DNA of 64,000 bases from NCBI GenBank assembly GCA_949286835.1, contig CASEDP010000001.1, positions 1 through 64,000 of the forward strand, written 5' to 3'. Below, piece after piece: positions 377-8,278 of the stretch. The notes under the pieces are model-generated. The model did no database searches. It was not told the origin of the DNA and saw nothing but the letters and a program-made list of their open reading frames with translations. Source of the DNA: an uncultured Clostridia bacterium. Lineage in GTDB: Bacteria > Bacillota > Clostridia > Christensenellales > Borkfalkiaceae. The position numbers and the translations under genes were made by a program. The stretch's first letter is position 1, and the number at the start of each line of letters is the position of its first letter.

Positions 377-452
<76 letters not shown>

Positions 453-631: not shown

Positions 632-1216
632 TTATTTGCCTTTCTTGTCGGGCAGCATTTTGACCTGCTCAATATCTTTGAGCATCAGCTTTGCCGTCTG
701 TTTTTCTGCGGCGTGCTTTCTGAGTATTGGCATCTGTTTGAAAAATCTTGCCTTTTCATAGGGCAGACTGTCGTTTGGCAATTCCGAAATTTCGATAAGG
801 GTGGAGATGTTGACAACGTACAGCTTGAGCTCGTCGCTCAGCCCGTCATAGATGGTCTTTAGTTTGGCGGTGGCGTTTCTGAAATACTGCTCGTACTTTA
901 AATAGCGCGAGATGTCATAGACTTTTGCCGTGACGCCCGTAAGTTCCGTCCAGAGTTCCTCATCGCTCTTGCTATCTGCGTTGAGAAGTTTTTCAATCTG
1001 CTCGACTATGTCGCCGAGCTTGGGCGCGAATTTTGCGTGCTTTAAGGCATTATTTACCGCTATATCGCATATCTCCTTGGGGTATTCGGACAGGGCTTCG
1101 AACCAGCTCTCGATGAGCAACGCCTGTTCGTCGTCGCCAAAATTGTATGCGTTTTCAAAATTAAGATTTATCTTGACGAGATAGAGGCTCACGTCGCGTT
1201 TTGTAAGTTTTTTCAT
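632..1216 (-). CDS. G39P-like helicase loader/inhibitor protein (putative)
   Basis: This 194-residue protein has an N-terminal half rich in helices. Residues about 36-75 follow the pattern of the phage G39P-type helicase loader/inhibitor domain: a W-F-x-A-L stretch, then P-K-E-I-C-D-I-A, then F-A-P-K-L-G-D-I-V-E-Q-I, where that family has W...L...P...A...FPP...EI. The rest is helical and lysine-rich. Its start codon overlaps the stop of the DnaD-like gene (TGATG), so the two should be translationally coupled. Family knowledge suggests it binds the replicative helicase DnaB during loading. The assignment rests on a weak motif and partner context; a general DNA-binding accessory role is the alternative. 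Confidence 0.5.
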   Translation of the reverse strand: MKKLTKRDVSLYLVKINLNFENAYNFGDDEQALLIESWFEALSEYPKEICDIAVNNALKHAKFAPKLGDIVEQIEKLLNADSKSDEELWTELTGVTAKVYDISRYLKYEQYFRNATAKLKTIYDGLSDELKLYVVNISTLIEISELPNDSLPYEKARFFKQMPILRKHAAEKQTAKLMLKDIEQVKMLPDKKGK

Positions 1217-2628
1217 CAGTTCTCCTCTTCGCCTTCAGAGCTGTATTTTTCTATCGTAGAGCGCCATTTGTCGAGGACGGAGCGCTTTTTGGACGCGGGG
1301 GCGACATTCTTTGCCGAAGGAATGTCCTCAACGGCGTAAATTCCCGAATTTTTCCAGGAAGAGAGTATATTGTTCATATATGCCACGGGGTTGCCTGCCG
1401 AGGCGGCGCGCGTCGCGGCGGAGAAAATCATCTCCCCGTCAAAACCCCAACCGCGCCAGACGTCGAGCAGATGTCTGTCGTGCGGGATAATCTTCCTTGT
1501 CAGACCGCAGGCGTCGAATATCTTCCTTATGAACTTGTCGTCCTCGGCAAGCCTGTTCAGATATTCCTCTATGCTGTCGGCGTCGACTATTCCCTCCTCG
1601 TAAAGCTTTATGATAAACTCATCCGCCTTTTCAAACGTTTTGAGACCGTTGAGGAAGCAATAGGTCGCAATTTTTTCAAGGCTCTGCGCGTCAAAGCCGA
1701 AGGAATACCACTTAACCGTATAGTTTTCCACATAGGGCGAGGGGTCGTCAATATAAATTCCCAGACAGCGCGCAATTTTATAGGTTGCATTGTATAGGGA
1801 GTCCCTGCTCTTGCGGTAATCGTCAATCTCCACGGGGTCAAATTTCTTGTTGTTGTAAAGTTCAAGCACAATTCTGTCCAGCTTTTCGGGCGTCTTTGCT
1901 TTGAAAATCTTTGCTGCATACAGCAACGCCTCGTCTGAAAAGCCCATTTCGCCCCACTTGTTGTAGAGTTCGCCGTCCTCGACGGCAGGCTGCCTCTTTA
2001 TTCCCATTGCCGCGAAGAGACGAATTAGCGCCGCCGTCGCGTTCGTGTAGGAAGAGAGTTTTTCTTCAACCTTTGCAAGCGTCGTACAGCCTTCGCGTTC
2101 AAAACTTTCGGCAACCTTCTTTATATAGGCTGGCGAAATTTTGTCGCCTTTTAAATTGACGCAGTAGGATACAATCATTACAAGCGCGTTCCTCTCGAAG
2201 GAATAGTCCTCCAAAAGCACGAGGTAGTCCCTGAATTCGTTCTGTGAGACCATTCTGCCCGCAAGAAGCGCCTGAATTTCTTCGTACAGCCCCTCATATT
2301 TTTCGGGGTGCAGACGCTTGGGTTTGCCGCTGAGGTTATCTGTATCCAGAATTTTTATCTCAAACGGAGCATATGAGGTTATGGCAATCAATTCAAACTC
2401 GTCTAGGTATTCAAAGTACTTTTTAAGTTCGTCCTCGGTGAGGTTGAGCTTTTTAGCGAAGTCCTCAGGGGTGTAGAAATTCTGTCCGTTCTGGCATATG
2501 TAGAGGGCGAAGAGGTAGACTTTTACCGCCATAGCGTCCAACTCGGGCAGATATCGCGTAATAAATTTATTTCCGACGTCAGTGACGGATTTTTTTACAA
2601 GTTCATCCTCTACCGTAATAAAGGGCAT
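1216..2628 (-). CDS. DnaD/DnaB-type replication initiation protein
   Basis: A 470-residue protein with an N-terminal winged-helix-like region (residues about 20-85) and three similar helical modules. Each has a conserved aromatic/Gly signature: Y-N-K-W-G-E-M-G-F near 222, V-K-W-Y-S-F-G-F near 305, and V-W-R-G-W-G-F near 397. The last module ends in Y-M-N-N-I-L-S-S-W, which matches the DnaD C-terminal motif (Y-I-x-x-I-L-x-x-W). In Firmicutes DnaD and DnaB proteins load the replicative helicase at the origin and at stalled forks. It heads a two-gene operon with the G39P-like gene and has its own divergent promoter. Three tandem modules make it longer than B. subtilis DnaD (about 230 residues). 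Confidence 0.75.
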   Translation of the reverse strand: MPFITVEDELVKKSVTDVGNKFITRYLPELDAMAVKVYLFALYICQNGQNFYTPEDFAKKLNLTEDELKKYFEYLDEFELIAITSYAPFEIKILDTDNLSGKPKRLHPEKYEGLYEEIQALLAGRMVSQNEFRDYLVLLEDYSFERNALVMIVSYCVNLKGDKISPAYIKKVAESFEREGCTTLAKVEEKLSSYTNATAALIRLFAAMGIKRQPAVEDGELYNKWGEMGFSDEALLYAAKIFKAKTPEKLDRIVLELYNNKKFDPVEIDDYRKSRDSLYNATYKIARCLGIYIDDPSPYVENYTVKWYSFGFDAQSLEKIATYCFLNGLKTFEKADEFIIKLYEEGIVDADSIEEYLNRLAEDDKFIRKIFDACGLTRKIIPHDRHLLDVWRGWGFDGEMIFSAATRAASAGNPVAYMNNILSSWKNSGIYAVEDIPSAKNVAPASKKRSVLDKWRSTIEKYSSEGEEEN

Positions 2629-2653
2629 AAAGACTAAAACTCCCGTGTAATGC

Positions 2654-2682
2654 TTGATTTATCTCGAAAAGTGGGCTATAAT
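2654..2682 (+). promoter_or_regulatory. promoter of sbcDC
   Basis: TTGATT (2654-2659) and a perfect TATAAT (2677-2682) are 17 bp apart and read rightward. Transcription should begin near 2689, giving a leader of about 110 nt before sbcD. The site lies inside the initially transcribed region of the opposing loader promoter. Confidence 0.75.
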
Positions 2683-2701
2683 ATTTGTCAGAGTGAATAT
2701 T

Positions 2702-2724
2702 GTCGCCTCTTTATAAAGAGCGAC
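2702..2724. promoter_or_regulatory. palindrome between divergent promoters, candidate operator
   Basis: A perfect 14-bp palindrome CTCTTTATAAAGAG (2707-2720) is flanked by GTCG/CGAC arms. It lies between the predicted start points of the rightward (about 2689) and leftward (about 2722) transcripts. A dimeric repressor bound here could control both operons. No regulator gene is adjacent, so the ligand is unknown. Confidence 0.5.
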
Positions 2725-2728
2725 TATT

Positions 2729-2757
2729 ATTATAAGCCAACCGACAAAAAAAATCAA
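2729..2757 (-). promoter_or_regulatory. promoter of the DnaD-like operon
   Basis: On the minus strand TTGATT (2752-2757) and a perfect TATAAT (2729-2734) are separated by 17 bp. Transcription should start near 2722 and run left, so it overlaps the sbcD leader in antisense over roughly 30 bases. Confidence 0.75.
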
Positions 2758-2799
2758 TTACATTGGCTGAAATAAATATTTGTAATTTCTTATACCGCA

Positions 2800-3948
2800 A
2801 TGAAGATACTGCACACATCCGACTGGCACATCGGCAAGAAGCTGATGGGGCGGGAGCGCTATGATGAGTTCCGTGCCGCCACAAACGAAATATATGAAAT
2901 CTGCCGCGACGAGGGGGTTGAACTCTGCCTCATAGCGGGTGATGTCTATGACACATATACGCCGTCGGCGGAGGCTGAGGAGATTTTTTTCGATGCGGTG
3001 GAAAGGCTCTCAACCGTCTGCGCGGTGCTGATTATAAGCGGCAACCACGACGACTATGTCCGCCTTACAGCAAGCCGCGCCCTTGCGGAAAAGCACAATG
3101 TCTATATAATCGGCAACAACTTAGTCAGGGTCGACTGCGACAAAAGGAGCAATTGCTATCCCGTGCAGTCGGACTGCGGCTACGTAATCTTTGAAAATCT
3201 GCGCGGCGAAAAGGTATATGTCAACACCCTGCCATATCCAAACGAGGCGCGCTTCAAAGAGGAAAAGACTGACGAGAGCTTCTCAGACAGAATGAAGAGG
3301 TGGATAGTGTACGGCGAGAGGGGAAACGCTGAAAAGCTGCCCGCTATCTTCCTTTCGCACATCTTCGTCGCGGGCGGAACTGCGGGCGATACCGAGAGGG
3401 AGATTGACCTCGGCGGGGCAAGACTTGTTCCCCGCGAACTTCTGCCGGAGGGCAGTTATTGTGCGCTCGGACATCTTCACAGGCGGCAGAAGATAGGCAA
3501 AAACGCCTATTACAGCGGCGCGATAATGCGCTTTTCCTTTGACGAGAGCAGTGCGGAAAAGTCCGTAAACGTCTTTGAACTGAATGGCGACGGCATTTCG
3601 GATTTCAGACAGATTGCTCTGAAGAGCATAAAAAACCTTGTAAGGCTGGAGGCTGTGTCGGCAGAGGACGGCATAGCGCTTCTTAAAAAATATTCCGACG
3701 ACTATGCGGAACTGACGCTTAACCTTAGCCAGCCGCTTACGCACGGGCAGACGGTTGAACTTCATAAGTGCGAAAACCTCGTCTCGCTAAAGACGCGGGT
3801 AGAGGACGCATTTGACGTTGCCGCGGCGGAGACGCGGAAGGACAAGTCCGCGTCCGAGCTGTTCGACGGCTACTATAAACTGCGATACGGCTGTCAGCCG
3901 TCAGGCGAGCTTAAGGCGCTCTTTTTAGAGCTCACGGAGCAGGAATGA
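2800..3948 (+). CDS. sbcD: exonuclease subunit SbcD (Mre11 family)
   Basis: This 382-residue Mre11-family nuclease pairs with SbcC to cut hairpins, palindromes and protein-blocked DNA ends. All metallophosphoesterase motifs are present: S-D-W-H (7-10), G-D-V-Y-D (47-51), G-N-H-D (81-84), a histidine after L-S-H-I, and G-H-L-H-R near 225. The length is normal for the family. The stop codon overlaps the sbcC start by four bases (ATGA), so the subunits should be made in step. The gene is the first of a rightward transcript from the promoter at 2654-2682. Confidence 0.95.
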   Translation: MKILHTSDWHIGKKLMGRERYDEFRAATNEIYEICRDEGVELCLIAGDVYDTYTPSAEAEEIFFDAVERLSTVCAVLIISGNHDDYVRLTASRALAEKHNVYIIGNNLVRVDCDKRSNCYPVQSDCGYVIFENLRGEKVYVNTLPYPNEARFKEEKTDESFSDRMKRWIVYGERGNAEKLPAIFLSHIFVAGGTAGDTEREIDLGGARLVPRELLPEGSYCALGHLHRRQKIGKNAYYSGAIMRFSFDESSAEKSVNVFELNGDGISDFRQIALKSIKNLVRLEAVSAEDGIALLKKYSDDYAELTLNLSQPLTHGQTVELHKCENLVSLKTRVEDAFDVAAAETRKDKSASELFDGYYKLRYGCQPSGELKALFLELTEQE

Positions 3949-5231
3949 AACCGATAAAATTGAAGTTCAGCGGGGTCAACAGCTTTTCCTCTGAGGCGGT
4001 GATTGACTTTGAAAAACTGACTGCAAGCGGTCTTTTCGGCATATTCGGCGATACTGGCAGCGGTAAGAGCACCATTCTCGACAGCATAAACTTTGCACTG
4101 TACGGCGACGTGGACAGAAGCAAAAAAAAGACAGATATAATAAACTATAACTGTGAGCAGGCAGAAGTCGAGTTCACGTTCAACATACTTTTAAACGGCA
4201 AGCGCGAAGTCTACAGGGTAGAGCGCAGCATAAAGAAGAAGAGCGGGCTGGGCAAGGCAATGCTCTACGTCAGGGACGGCGAAGGCGAGCGCTGTATTGC
4301 CGACAATACGACTTCGGTAAATGCTAAGGTAGAGGGCATACTCGGTTTAAGCGCCGAAGATTTCCGCAAGTGCATTGCTCTTCCTCAGGGAGAGTTCGCA
4401 CAATTTGTAAAGAGCTCCCCGGCAGAGCGTTTCAAACTCATCGAAAGGCTATTTTCCCTCGGCAGATACGGCGACGGCCTCAGGGATAAGCTCAACGCCG
4501 CGGAGAGCGAAGCGGAGGGCGAACTGTCTGCAGTCAGGGCACAGTACGACGTGCTCTCGGACGTCAGCGAGGAGCTCATCTCCTCTCTCGGGCAGGAGTT
4601 TGAAAGCCTTAAAGCGGGGCTTATGCAGCTTGAAAAGCAGTGCGACGAGGCAGACAAGGCTGCGCAGTCGCTCAGGGCGGCTTACGATATCCGCCTTGAA
4701 CTTGAAAAGGTTGAAAGTCAACTCTCCGAGATTGCGTCCAAGTGCGCTGAGATGGAAAAACTGCGCTCGGTAGTGAGGAATGCGCCCGCCTGCAGGCATA
4801 TCTGCGAGCTCGATGCTAAGCGCACACGCCTTGCAGATAACATTGATAGCCTTAAAAACAGGTGCGGCGAACTCGAACGCAGCCTGGAAGATGGCAGAAA
4901 GACGCTCGAAGGACTTGTAAATGAAGAAAAAAAGGGCGACTTTGAAAGGCTTTCGGAGGAACTTGCCGCAAAACTCGCGGTGTTCGGCTCGGCGTCGGGC
5001 GACGTTGCGGAGCTGAAGGCGGCGCAGACCGCGCTTCTGCGGCTCAGGGAGGACTATCAGTCCGCCGTTGCAAGATTAAAATCTTACAAAAATAAGCGGG
5101 AAAACGTCGCAGCTCAGCTTGCGGAGGCGCAGGCGGCGGTTGAAAATTGCCGTGTCCCCGAGAGGGCGCTTCAGGCCGGGTATTTTAAGGGAAGAATATA
5201 CCTCACAACTCGTCTATCTCGGCGAACTTAG
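3945..5231 (+). CDS. sbcC: SbcC, N-terminal part (frameshifted)
   Basis: This reading frame encodes the Rad50-like N-terminal ATPase half with Walker A G-D-T-G-S-G-K-S-T at about 36-44, the Q-loop sequence L-P-Q-G-E-F-A-Q-F near 150, and the ascending coiled coil. The frame should continue into the one ending at 6597, but an extra base in the GGG run at 5189-5191 shifts it. The last 14 or so residues before the stop at 5231 are therefore out of frame. Deleting one G restores the join K-E-E-Y-T and gives a protein of about 883 residues. SbcC is the ATPase that moves DNA ends into SbcD. Confidence 0.85.
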   Translation: MKPIKLKFSGVNSFSSEAVIDFEKLTASGLFGIFGDTGSGKSTILDSINFALYGDVDRSKKKTDIINYNCEQAEVEFTFNILLNGKREVYRVERSIKKKSGLGKAMLYVRDGEGERCIADNTTSVNAKVEGILGLSAEDFRKCIALPQGEFAQFVKSSPAERFKLIERLFSLGRYGDGLRDKLNAAESEAEGELSAVRAQYDVLSDVSEELISSLGQEFESLKAGLMQLEKQCDEADKAAQSLRAAYDIRLELEKVESQLSEIASKCAEMEKLRSVVRNAPACRHICELDAKRTRLADNIDSLKNRCGELERSLEDGRKTLEGLVNEEKKGDFERLSEELAAKLAVFGSASGDVAELKAAQTALLRLREDYQSAVARLKSYKNKRENVAAQLAEAQAAVENCRVPERALQAGYFKGRIYLTTRLSRRT

Positions 5232-6597
5232 GGAGAGCATAAAGGGCTATGACGACAAGAGCCCGCTTTACGCCTATGTCAGGGAAGAGCTCACCGACAG
5301 GATGAACTACTACAAAAATCTAATCAGCTCTACCTGTATAGTCAGTTTCGACGTCAGAAAGGAACTTGAAGAGGCGGACAGACTTGCAAAGCAGAGGGAA
5401 AAGCTGGTAGCTCAGCGCGATAAGCAGAAGGACGCGCTGTCCGCGGCAGAGCGCGAACTTGCGCTGTGCTCAAGCGACTGCGAAAAGATAAAAAAGGACG
5501 GCGAGCAGGCGGCGGAGCGCGTTTCGTCGATAAGGATAAAGCTCGACGGCGTGTTCGGCGAGGGCGCGGACGACTATTCCGCGCAGACCGAAAAGCTCAA
5601 AGAGCGCATTGGCGCGGTCAGAAAACAGCGCGAGCAATTGCAGTCGCGGACCGAAAGTGCGAGAAAGCAGGTGCAGGGCGCCGAAATCTCCCTCGGGGAG
5701 TGCCGTGCAAAGCTGACATCGGCTGTCGAGGAACTCAAATCGCTCGAAGAGGAGATATCTTCCGCCTTATCGGAGGGCGGGTTTAAGGATATTTCGTCGT
5801 GCAGCGAGATTGTCAAAGAGGTCTCTGCCTATGCCGACGCGGAGGCTGAACTCAAGAGATATGACGAGCGGAAGATTGCGCTCACTTCAAGGCATACGGA
5901 ACTCGCGGCTAAGGTCGGCGAGGTAAGTGTTACCTCCGCGCAGCTCGAAGAAGCCATATCTCTCCAGAAAAAGCTCAGGGATGCCGAAAAGGAGATGCAC
6001 GCCGAACAGAAGGTCATAGAGAGCAAGCTCTCCGAAAACCGCAAAAAACTTGAAAAGAAGAAGCTCGTCGAAGTCGAGATGGGCAAAAAACTCAGGCGCA
6101 GGGAGCTCGTCTCCCAGCTTAAAGAGCTTGTAAAAGGCAATAAATTTCTCGAATACATTGCAGGCGAATACCTTTCGGACATATCCAAGTCGGCGTCGGG
6201 CACGCTCTTAAAGCTCACGCAGGGCAGGTATTACCTCACATATACGGATACATTCTATGTCGCCGACAACTTCAACTGCGGAAAGCTGAGGGGAGTAAAT
6301 ACTCTTTCGGGAGGAGAGACGTTCCTCGTTTCGCTTTCGCTCGCTCTTGCGCTGTCGTCGTCGATATGCAGGAGCTCTATGCGCTCCATAGAGTTCTTCT
6401 TCCTCGACGAGGGGTTCGGAACGCTGGACGAAAGCCTTGTCGACACGGTAATGGATACTCTTGAAAAACTCAGAAGTTCGGACTTCACGATAGGCATAAT
6501 AAGTCACGTGGAAGAACTTAAACACAGAATAGACAGTAAAATCACAGTAAACAAAGCAACCGAAACGCACGGCTCTGCCGTAACGCTTTCGGTTTAA
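5191..6597 (+). CDS. sbcC: SbcC, C-terminal part (frameshifted)
   Basis: This is the second half of the Rad50-like ATPase. A long descending coiled coil is followed by the ABC signature L-S-G-G-E-T-F, Walker B F-F-F-L-D-E-G-F-G and the H-loop histidine in I-S-H-V-E-E. Homology starts at about 5191 in the +1 frame relative to the upstream half. If this part were made separately, the first ATG would be 5302 (M-N-Y-Y-K). The middle of the coiled coil, where Rad50 and SbcC normally carry a C-x-x-C zinc hook, shows no C-x-x-C in either half. The intact protein would also be shorter than the usual 1000 or more residues. Confidence 0.85.
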   Translation, partial: EEYTSQLVYLGELRESIKGYDDKSPLYAYVREELTDRMNYYKNLISSTCIVSFDVRKELEEADRLAKQREKLVAQRDKQKDALSAAERELALCSSDCEKIKKDGEQAAERVSSIRIKLDGVFGEGADDYSAQTEKLKERIGAVRKQREQLQSRTESARKQVQGAEISLGECRAKLTSAVEELKSLEEEISSALSEGGFKDISSCSEIVKEVSAYADAEAELKRYDERKIALTSRHTELAAKVGEVSVTSAQLEEAISLQKKLRDAEKEMHAEQKVIESKLSENRKKLEKKKLVEVEMGKKLRRRELVSQLKELVKGNKFLEYIAGEYLSDISKSASGTLLKLTQGRYYLTYTDTFYVADNFNCGKLRGVNTLSGGETFLVSLSLALALSSSICRSSMRSIEFFFLDEGFGTLDESLVDTVMDTLEKLRSSDFTIGIISHVEELKHRIDSKITVNKATETHGSAVTLSV

Positions 6598-6607
6598 GGA
6601 GTATAAG

Positions 6608-8278
6608 TTGTCAAACATCTTAACACCTCTTGCATTATGGAAAAACTTCAATTCGGGGCTGACCCTTATGCACCGCTCGCTCGGCGACAAGATAGAGGGC
6701 GGAATACGGTATGAAAAGGTCAACTTCGCGGGCAGGGACACGGGCGAAGGCAGGGTTACCATCTTCGGAGTGCTCGCCTCGTCGGCAACTACCCCGTCGA
6801 TGGACGGCGTGCTTCTTCTCGGCGACAGTAAACAGCCGATAATGGAGGACCTTCTCCGTCTCTTCGTCGAAAAGGGCTATACCGTCCTGCAGGTTGACTA
6901 TGCGGGCGAGCGGGAGGGGCTCAAGGACTTTACCCGCTATCCCGAGGTAATTTCATACGCAAACGATGAAAAGAGCGGGCGCTATAAGCAGTTCGTCGAC
7001 GAGAGCGCCGACAAGACTTCCTGGTACGAATGGACTGCCGTCGGCATCTATGCGCGCAAATATCTTGCCGCCCGCCTCGGAAACGAGAATATCGGGCTGG
7101 TGGGAATACGCGACGGCGGAGAAATTGCGTGGAAGCTCGCGTATGCCGAAAAGTTTGCCTGCGCGGTCGTTGTTAGCGCCTGCGGCTGGAAGGCATACGA
7201 AGGTTACGGCAAGTTTTCCAACAGCGAACCGCAGTTCGACGACGAGAGGTACAGATTTGTTGCGGGCATAGATTCGCAGGCGTATGCGCCATATATCAGA
7301 TGCCCCGTCCTGATGCTATGCACTACCAATGACGTGGCGTTCGACTATGACAGGGCTTACGATACATTTTCGCGCATAAATCCGGAATTTCAGGGGCAGA
7401 GCGCCATAACCTATTCGGTCAATTGCGATTGCAGGATAGACGAGAAGTCGACAAAGGATATGTTTATGTATATCGACGGCTTCGTAAAAGGCAGAAAGGT
7501 ATTCATACCCAAACCCGTTGAGATAGGCGTAATCGTAGACGAGGAGGATAATCTCGTAATCAGGGCACAATGTGACGAACAGGGTATACTCGAAGAATGC
7601 GGCGTATATGTCGCGGAGGATTGCCTGGAGTCGCCGTTCAGAAGTTGGGCAAAAATTCCCTTCAAACGCAATGCGGGAGAAAATGAGAGGGAATTCTTTA
7701 TGAATTTGTACGAAAAGACAAAACTTCTCTTCGTACTTGGCTATGCCGTCTATTCCAACGGGTTCACGGTGTGGTCAAAACTCGCGGTTAAAAAGGTCAG
7801 CGGAAAGTTCCGCAACAGCCGCACAAAGAGCAAGATATTGTATTCCGTGCGCGGCAGCGACAGTTTCGGCGCGGCAGATCTTTCGTTAAAGGCAATAGGC
7901 GGAATGTTTATGACTGACCGCGACTATGTCCCGACCGTGATAACAGAAAACGGGCTCAAGGGCATCTATTCGCCATACGGGCTTATGACTACCCGCTCGT
8001 ATAGTCCGCAGTTTGCGCCCGACGGCGACAGCATATTGCGCTTTGACATATGTCCGGAGGAGAATTGTCCCTGCAAAGTGGTGCTGCTCAGCGGCGAGAA
8101 ACCCGCAAATTACAGCGTCAGCCTCAGGCTCGTGGGCGGCGTCTGGCAAAAGATTGTGCTCGACAGCAAATTATTCAAAAATGCGGAGGGCATAGCGTTG
8201 GAGGACTTTGAGGGCTGTAAGATAATTACCATTGTCTGCGACAAGAGGTATGCGCTCAACAACCTCATATGGCTTTGA
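6608..8278 (+). CDS. alpha/beta-hydrolase-fold protein lacking the usual catalytic triad
   Basis: A 556-residue protein starting at TTG 6608 after GGAG. Residues about 45-300 follow the alpha/beta-hydrolase order: a strand V-L-L-L-G, the Y-T-V-L-Q-V-D-Y-A-G loop near 98, the nucleophile-elbow position L-V-G-I-R-D-G-G-E near 160, and the acid-strand C-P-V-L-M-L-C-T-T-N-D near 240. The elbow has no serine, aspartate or cysteine in the expected place (G-I-R-D-G), and the usual C-terminal histidine is not seen. The second half (300-556) is predicted beta-rich and unrecognised. It lies between sbcC and lepB, 1 bp from lepB. Function unknown; it may be a non-catalytic binding protein. Confidence 0.6.
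   Translation: MSNILTPLALWKNFNSGLTLMHRSLGDKIEGGIRYEKVNFAGRDTGEGRVTIFGVLASSATTPSMDGVLLLGDSKQPIMEDLLRLFVEKGYTVLQVDYAGEREGLKDFTRYPEVISYANDEKSGRYKQFVDESADKTSWYEWTAVGIYARKYLAARLGNENIGLVGIRDGGEIAWKLAYAEKFACAVVVSACGWKAYEGYGKFSNSEPQFDDERYRFVAGIDSQAYAPYIRCPVLMLCTTNDVAFDYDRAYDTFSRINPEFQGQSAITYSVNCDCRIDEKSTKDMFMYIDGFVKGRKVFIPKPVEIGVIVDEEDNLVIRAQCDEQGILEECGVYVAEDCLESPFRSWAKIPFKRNAGENEREFFMNLYEKTKLLFVLGYAVYSNGFTVWSKLAVKKVSGKFRNSRTKSKILYSVRGSDSFGAADLSLKAIGGMFMTDRDYVPTVITENGLKGIYSPYGLMTTRSYSPQFAPDGDSILRFDICPEENCPCKVVLLSGEKPANYSVSLRLVGGVWQKIVLDSKLFKNAEGIALEDFEGCKIITIVCDKRYALNNLIWL

Follow-up and report, generated by a model that had tools for sequence, protein, structure and literature searches.

Opposed, face-to-face promoters upstream of dnaD are conserved across changes of the neighbouring gene in a clostridial lineage

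Results

Genes and features of the dnaD/sbcD locus

The window analysed here is a stretch of 64,000 nt of DNA from an uncultured Clostridia bacterium, and the locus of interest is the 171-nt spacer that separates a leftward dnaD gene from a rightward sbcD gene. The features referred to below are as follows.

632–1216, minus strand: ORF of 194 aa abutting the end of dnaD, without a family match
1216–2628, minus strand: dnaD-like gene, 470 aa, DnaB_2/DnaD domains
2636–2644, minus strand: dnaD ribosome-binding site GGGAGTTTT (minus-strand letters), kept across the genus
2654–2682, plus strand: promoter in the sbcDC/hydrolase direction (TTGATT 2654–2659, 17-nt spacer, TATAAT 2677–2682)
2683–2728: interior between the -10 boxes, 46 nt in the window and 14–71 nt across the genus, not conserved
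2707–2720: perfect 14-bp palindrome CTCTTTATAAAGAG, between the predicted start points
2729–2757, minus strand: promoter in the dnaD direction (TTGATT 2757–2752, 17-nt spacer, TATAAT 2734–2729)
2800–3948, plus strand: sbcD (Pfam/NCBIfam)
3945–6597, plus strand: sbcC, in two overlapping frames (3945–5231 and 5119–6597)
6608–8278, plus strand: hydrolase-like ORF of 556 aa behind sbcC, without a family match

The names dnaD and sbcD, given in a first-pass annotation of the same DNA, are upheld by matches to Pfam DnaB_2 and NCBIfam DnaD_dom for the former and to NCBIfam TIGR00619 (sbcd) for the latter. The minus-strand genes had also been called a helicase-loader operon, a label carried by dnaD only, as searches of Pfam, NCBIfam and PDB sequences gave nothing for the second gene (632–1216); the two are probably co-transcribed. 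The two sbcC frames match opposite ends of SbcC models, and the split may come from a faulty assembly or be a genuine break in the frame. The 556-aa hydrolase-like protein matched no Pfam or NCBIfam family; in it we take GIRDGG to be the nucleophile motif, at the place where G-x-S-x-G would be expected for the presumed fold; its gene is kept in the genus, either beside dnaD or behind sbcC. Near the contig edge (131–397) there is a 140-bp tandem duplication (1.9 copies, 98% matches) that adjoins a tRNA-Thr gene (377–452, minus strand) and carries a terminator-like hairpin and an apparent copy of the tRNA 3' end.

The promoter pair

Each strand of the spacer carries a sigma-70-type promoter, TTGATT-17-TATAAT, and the -10 boxes lie inside the -35 boxes, so that the two point inward, as the first-pass annotation had described, while the coding genes on either side diverge. 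The term divergent promoters refers in this text to genes that diverge but whose promoters are face-to-face. Both are near-consensus (scores 12/12 in a consensus scan), with 46 nt between the -10 boxes. An exact TTGATT-17-TATAAT is expected at about 1e-4 sites per strand in DNA of this composition and the pair is conserved (see below), and for these reasons the promoters are considered to be above chance. With start points placed about 7 nt past each -10 box, transcription would begin near 2689 (plus) and 2722 (minus), giving a predicted antisense overlap of about 33 nt, which agrees with the earlier estimate of some 30 bases.

The palindrome and the interior

The perfect palindrome that had been reported between the two start points was confirmed. 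It occurs as a single copy in the genome (searched at up to 1 mismatch). Perfect palindromes of at least 14 bp number 22 in the 139 kb of intergenic DNA within 860 kb of the same genome (0.16 per intergenic kb), and from this rate the chance of finding one in a 171-nt spacer is about 3%. The closest relative found in the genome collection examined, L315, is also an uncultured Clostridia bacterium (DnaD 83% identical), and there the hexamers of both promoters are unchanged while the palindrome is missing; it is absent too from the other aligned relatives. The interior varies across the genus in both sequence and length, and an operator-type inverted repeat conserved between the start points was not found in L315 or the other aligned relatives. 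Conservation in relatives had been named beforehand as a test of the arrangement, and the promoters passed it but the palindrome did not. Judged from these alignments, the palindrome appears to be incidental and without a conserved part.

Conservation of the layout and change of partner

All 38 dnaD loci of the same genus with usable upstream sequence have the face-to-face layout (L004 was excluded, its contig ending 50 nt upstream of dnaD). In the 34 of these that were scored in detail, a 17-bp spacer was found in 34/34 plus-strand promoters and in all 32 minus-strand promoters scored; L062 and L063 have weaker minus-strand promoters, which were scored only in the full 38-locus survey. The -10 boxes are 14–48 nt apart in 35/38 loci, and the -35 box of the plus-strand promoter lies 26–29 nt from the dnaD start codon across the genus. 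The gene on the other side is sbcD at 21 loci and, at the remaining 17, the hydrolase-like gene found behind sbcC in the window; the latter count includes L064 (G035), labelled codirectional on a short stretch, where the hydrolase-like gene was seen. When sbcD was searched for in 18 genomes, mostly ones without it at the locus, matches were obtained in 16, all of them distant (identity 39% or less).

The survey of other genera and families covered 76 dnaD loci, of which 32 had both promoters scorable; the other 44 yielded no such pair at the threshold used. Among the 32, the promoters were face-to-face at 24 (including two labelled codirectional in the survey table, where the 'div?' labels for neighbour orientation are crude), had overlapping -10 boxes at two, and were, by our own rule, back-to-back at six, three of which still overlap (gap -15 to -25). 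Face-to-face cases were found in nine families, including that of the window. The spacing differs considerably between groups. In genus g27, of the same family as the window, the -10 boxes abut (gap 0–5, 5/5 loci) and consequently no transcript overlap is predicted, so that promoter opposition is conserved more widely than antisense overlap. The boxes also abut or overlap in part of family f31, and in families f8 and f28 they are 86–106 nt apart, which exceeds two polymerase footprints.

The partner gene also turns over outside the genus. sbcD lies opposite dnaD in families f1, f14, f18, f28 and f31, and sbcC does so in one genome of f24; because sbcD adjoins dnaD in five families, the divergent neighbourhood is old. 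In f8, the opposite gene resembles an ABC transporter (as read from its start), and in f19 other genes are found, with the face-to-face layout kept in both. The association with SbcCD is partial, and a specific link between DNA-end repair (SbcCD) and replication (DnaD) is weakened by the hydrolase-like gene at 17/38 genus loci and by the other genes found in other families. Relatives of dnaD were also sought in viral contigs, and none were found.

Other divergent gene pairs

In 860 kb of the genome that includes the window, 61 divergent pairs were called, and 36 had both promoters scorable. Two of these were face-to-face, namely dnaD/sbcD and one other (scores 10/10), and two had overlapping -10 boxes. 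This supersedes a smaller sample of 462.5 kb (1/20 face-to-face). In 200 kb from each of two further genomes, G078 (same family) and G043 (another family), one of nine scorable pairs per genome was face-to-face, and in each case it was the dnaD locus. With dnaD excluded, the samples of the three genomes gave 1/51 scorable divergent pairs with this layout. A simple gene caller and a consensus scan underlie these counts, and the calls for the window's own genome missed the first part of sbcC. A Fisher test of 24/32 (outside the genus) against 2/36 (own genome) gave p ~2e-9, a value not leaned on here since related loci were counted as independent and dnaD is part of the background.

Promoter sequence, regulon and leader RNA

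The motif CTTGATTTAT-N6-AAAAGG-N2-TATAAT gave 26 matches in 25/38 genomes, 25 of them at the dnaD locus and one elsewhere, which at first suggested that it is specific to this locus. Control promoters of the same genus, upstream of ilvC (25 loci) and L31 (29 loci), showed a degree of conservation similar to that of the plus-strand promoter, and a third control (18 loci) a lower one; the idea that the plus-strand promoter is exceptionally conserved in sequence was accordingly dropped. A regulon defined by TTGATTT was likewise rejected, as TTGATTT-N16-TATAATA, with up to 2 mismatches allowed, has 125 genome sites and its reversed control has 24, which looks like the general promoter consensus. 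For a structured leader or riboswitch, no Rfam match was found in 2400–3000, and no common dnaD leader fold was seen by eye in 32 single-sequence folds.

Discussion

The reading we favour, by a little over even odds, is that conserved, opposed promoters of housekeeping type, serving dnaD on one side and the opposite operon on the other, exclude each other and compete. A polymerase open complex spans about -55 to +20. Since the -10 boxes are so close in 35/38 genus loci, two open complexes should not both fit, and a polymerase on one promoter would block the other; each polymerase leaving either promoter would also have to cross the opposing one. Competition between dnaD and the opposite operon could then cap and smooth the output of each, and make each promoter sensitive to activation of the other. 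Polymerase collision had been suggested in the first-pass annotation, and collision or mutual exclusion is the best remaining explanation for promoters that are opposed and conserved, the mechanism itself being an inference. Firing of both promoters, their mutual exclusion and the importance of the effect to the cell are all presumed from the DNA sequence. In favour of this reading are the conservation of the layout, its rarity elsewhere in the same genomes and its persistence while the partner changes, from sbcD to the hydrolase-like gene, the ABC-transporter-like gene of f8 and the others of f19. Counting against it are the lack of predicted overlap in g27, the wide gaps in f8 and f28, the 6/32 loci that are back-to-back and the 44/76 that could not be scored, as well as the unexceptional sequence conservation of the plus-strand promoter beside those of ilvC and L31.

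Face-to-face promoters are a known kind of arrangement. Beck and Warren (1988) are said to have described them as a general class of divergent promoters with the same layout as in the window, and we know of no dnaD case within that class. At the pR and pL promoters of phage 186, which are convergent, sitting-duck collisions at short overlap are regarded as the main source of interference, although that system differs from the window in being a phage switch with a repressor. A study of scbA–scbR in Streptomyces coelicolor, which also names the phage 186 pR–pL interference, describes a gene pair with face-to-face promoters and a 53 bp overlap, for which occlusion, collision and sitting-duck interference were modelled (PMC3134472). 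The dnaD locus resembles it in having such a pair with a short overlap, and by analogy similar interference may occur; unlike scbA–scbR, a repressor-amplifier switch with a known ligand, it involves genes for replication and for repair or a hydrolase, no regulator of it is known and its interior is unconserved. According to Warman et al. (2026), binding of opposed polymerases at bidirectional promoters is exclusive, there is little competition when such promoters are weak and repression once one direction is strong, interference lowers noise, and separate divergent promoters fall outside their category (PMC12825309). The overlapping, pseudo-symmetrical core with a shared or abutting -10 that defines that category is seen only in relatives, g27 and part of f31, and not in the window with its 46-nt gap. 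There the promoters are separate, with crossed start points, and are near-consensus rather than weak; on the basis of the work of Warman et al., competition would be expected because of this strength (PMC12825309).

The most serious rival, to which we give somewhat less than one chance in three, is that the layout is inherited and has no regulatory meaning, the two independent promoters facing each other by ancestry with negligible interference. Both are conserved much as the housekeeping promoters of ilvC and L31 are, the little competition described for weak bidirectional promoters (PMC12825309) would fit, and inside the genus inheritance alone could keep the layout. It explains less well why the layout stays when interior length, interior sequence and neighbouring gene all turn over, or why nearly every other divergent pair sampled from these genomes is back-to-back. 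A less probable rival, at roughly one chance in eight, makes the plus-strand promoter mainly a governor of dnaD, one that reads antisense from within the dnaD leader and keeps DnaD at a low level irrespective of the gene it also serves. Its nearly constant position in the genus would agree with this, as would the face-to-face loci of f19, f8 and f28, which differ in their opposite genes yet have the -35 box 20–32 nt from the start of dnaD; in other families, however, that distance ranges from 13 to 80 nt, and short leaders could put the promoter there without selection.

Two further proposals are very improbable. A regulator bound at the palindrome and controlling both operons, as the first-pass annotation had envisaged, gains from a perfect repeat between the start points that is unique in the genome, yet L315 lacks it with promoters intact, the interior is unconserved, and the chance rate for a spacer of this length is also to be considered. 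That the genome has a single copy was itself taken as a reason against a regulator, and the proposal found no support and was rejected. Just as doubtful is the formation of double-stranded RNA by the overlapping 5' ends, its cleavage coupling the two messages. The overlap predicted in the window would allow it, and sense–antisense interaction was modelled for scbA–scbR (PMC3134472), but at gaps of 14–15 nt the predicted overlap shrinks to 1–2 nt, it vanishes where the -10 boxes abut, and the leader folds have nothing evident in common.

It could be speculated, with perhaps one chance in five of being right, that the leader of dnaD in this clostridial order contains a dedicated promoter of opposite direction, retained through several changes of the gene served, which would act as a protein-free limiter and steadier of DnaD supply, and hence of replication initiation. 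While opposed promoters are of a known kind, no description of a dnaD-specific, partner-independent case was found in the open-licence literature on the gene pair, dnaD promoters and promoter layout, where work on the layout was of a general kind. If the competition is real, it would make the amount of a replication-initiation protein depend on how active a neighbouring operon is, by means that need no regulator and are kept across families. The loci also offer a natural spacing series, the -10 boxes lying 0 to 106 nt apart, that would allow the dependence of polymerase interference on distance to be measured. At L293 (G068), the first 62 nt upstream of dnaD in the dnaD/sbcD spacer carry TTGACA-18-TATAAT on both strands, and the two promoters cover nearly the same 35 bases, forming a near-symmetrical overlapping promoter.
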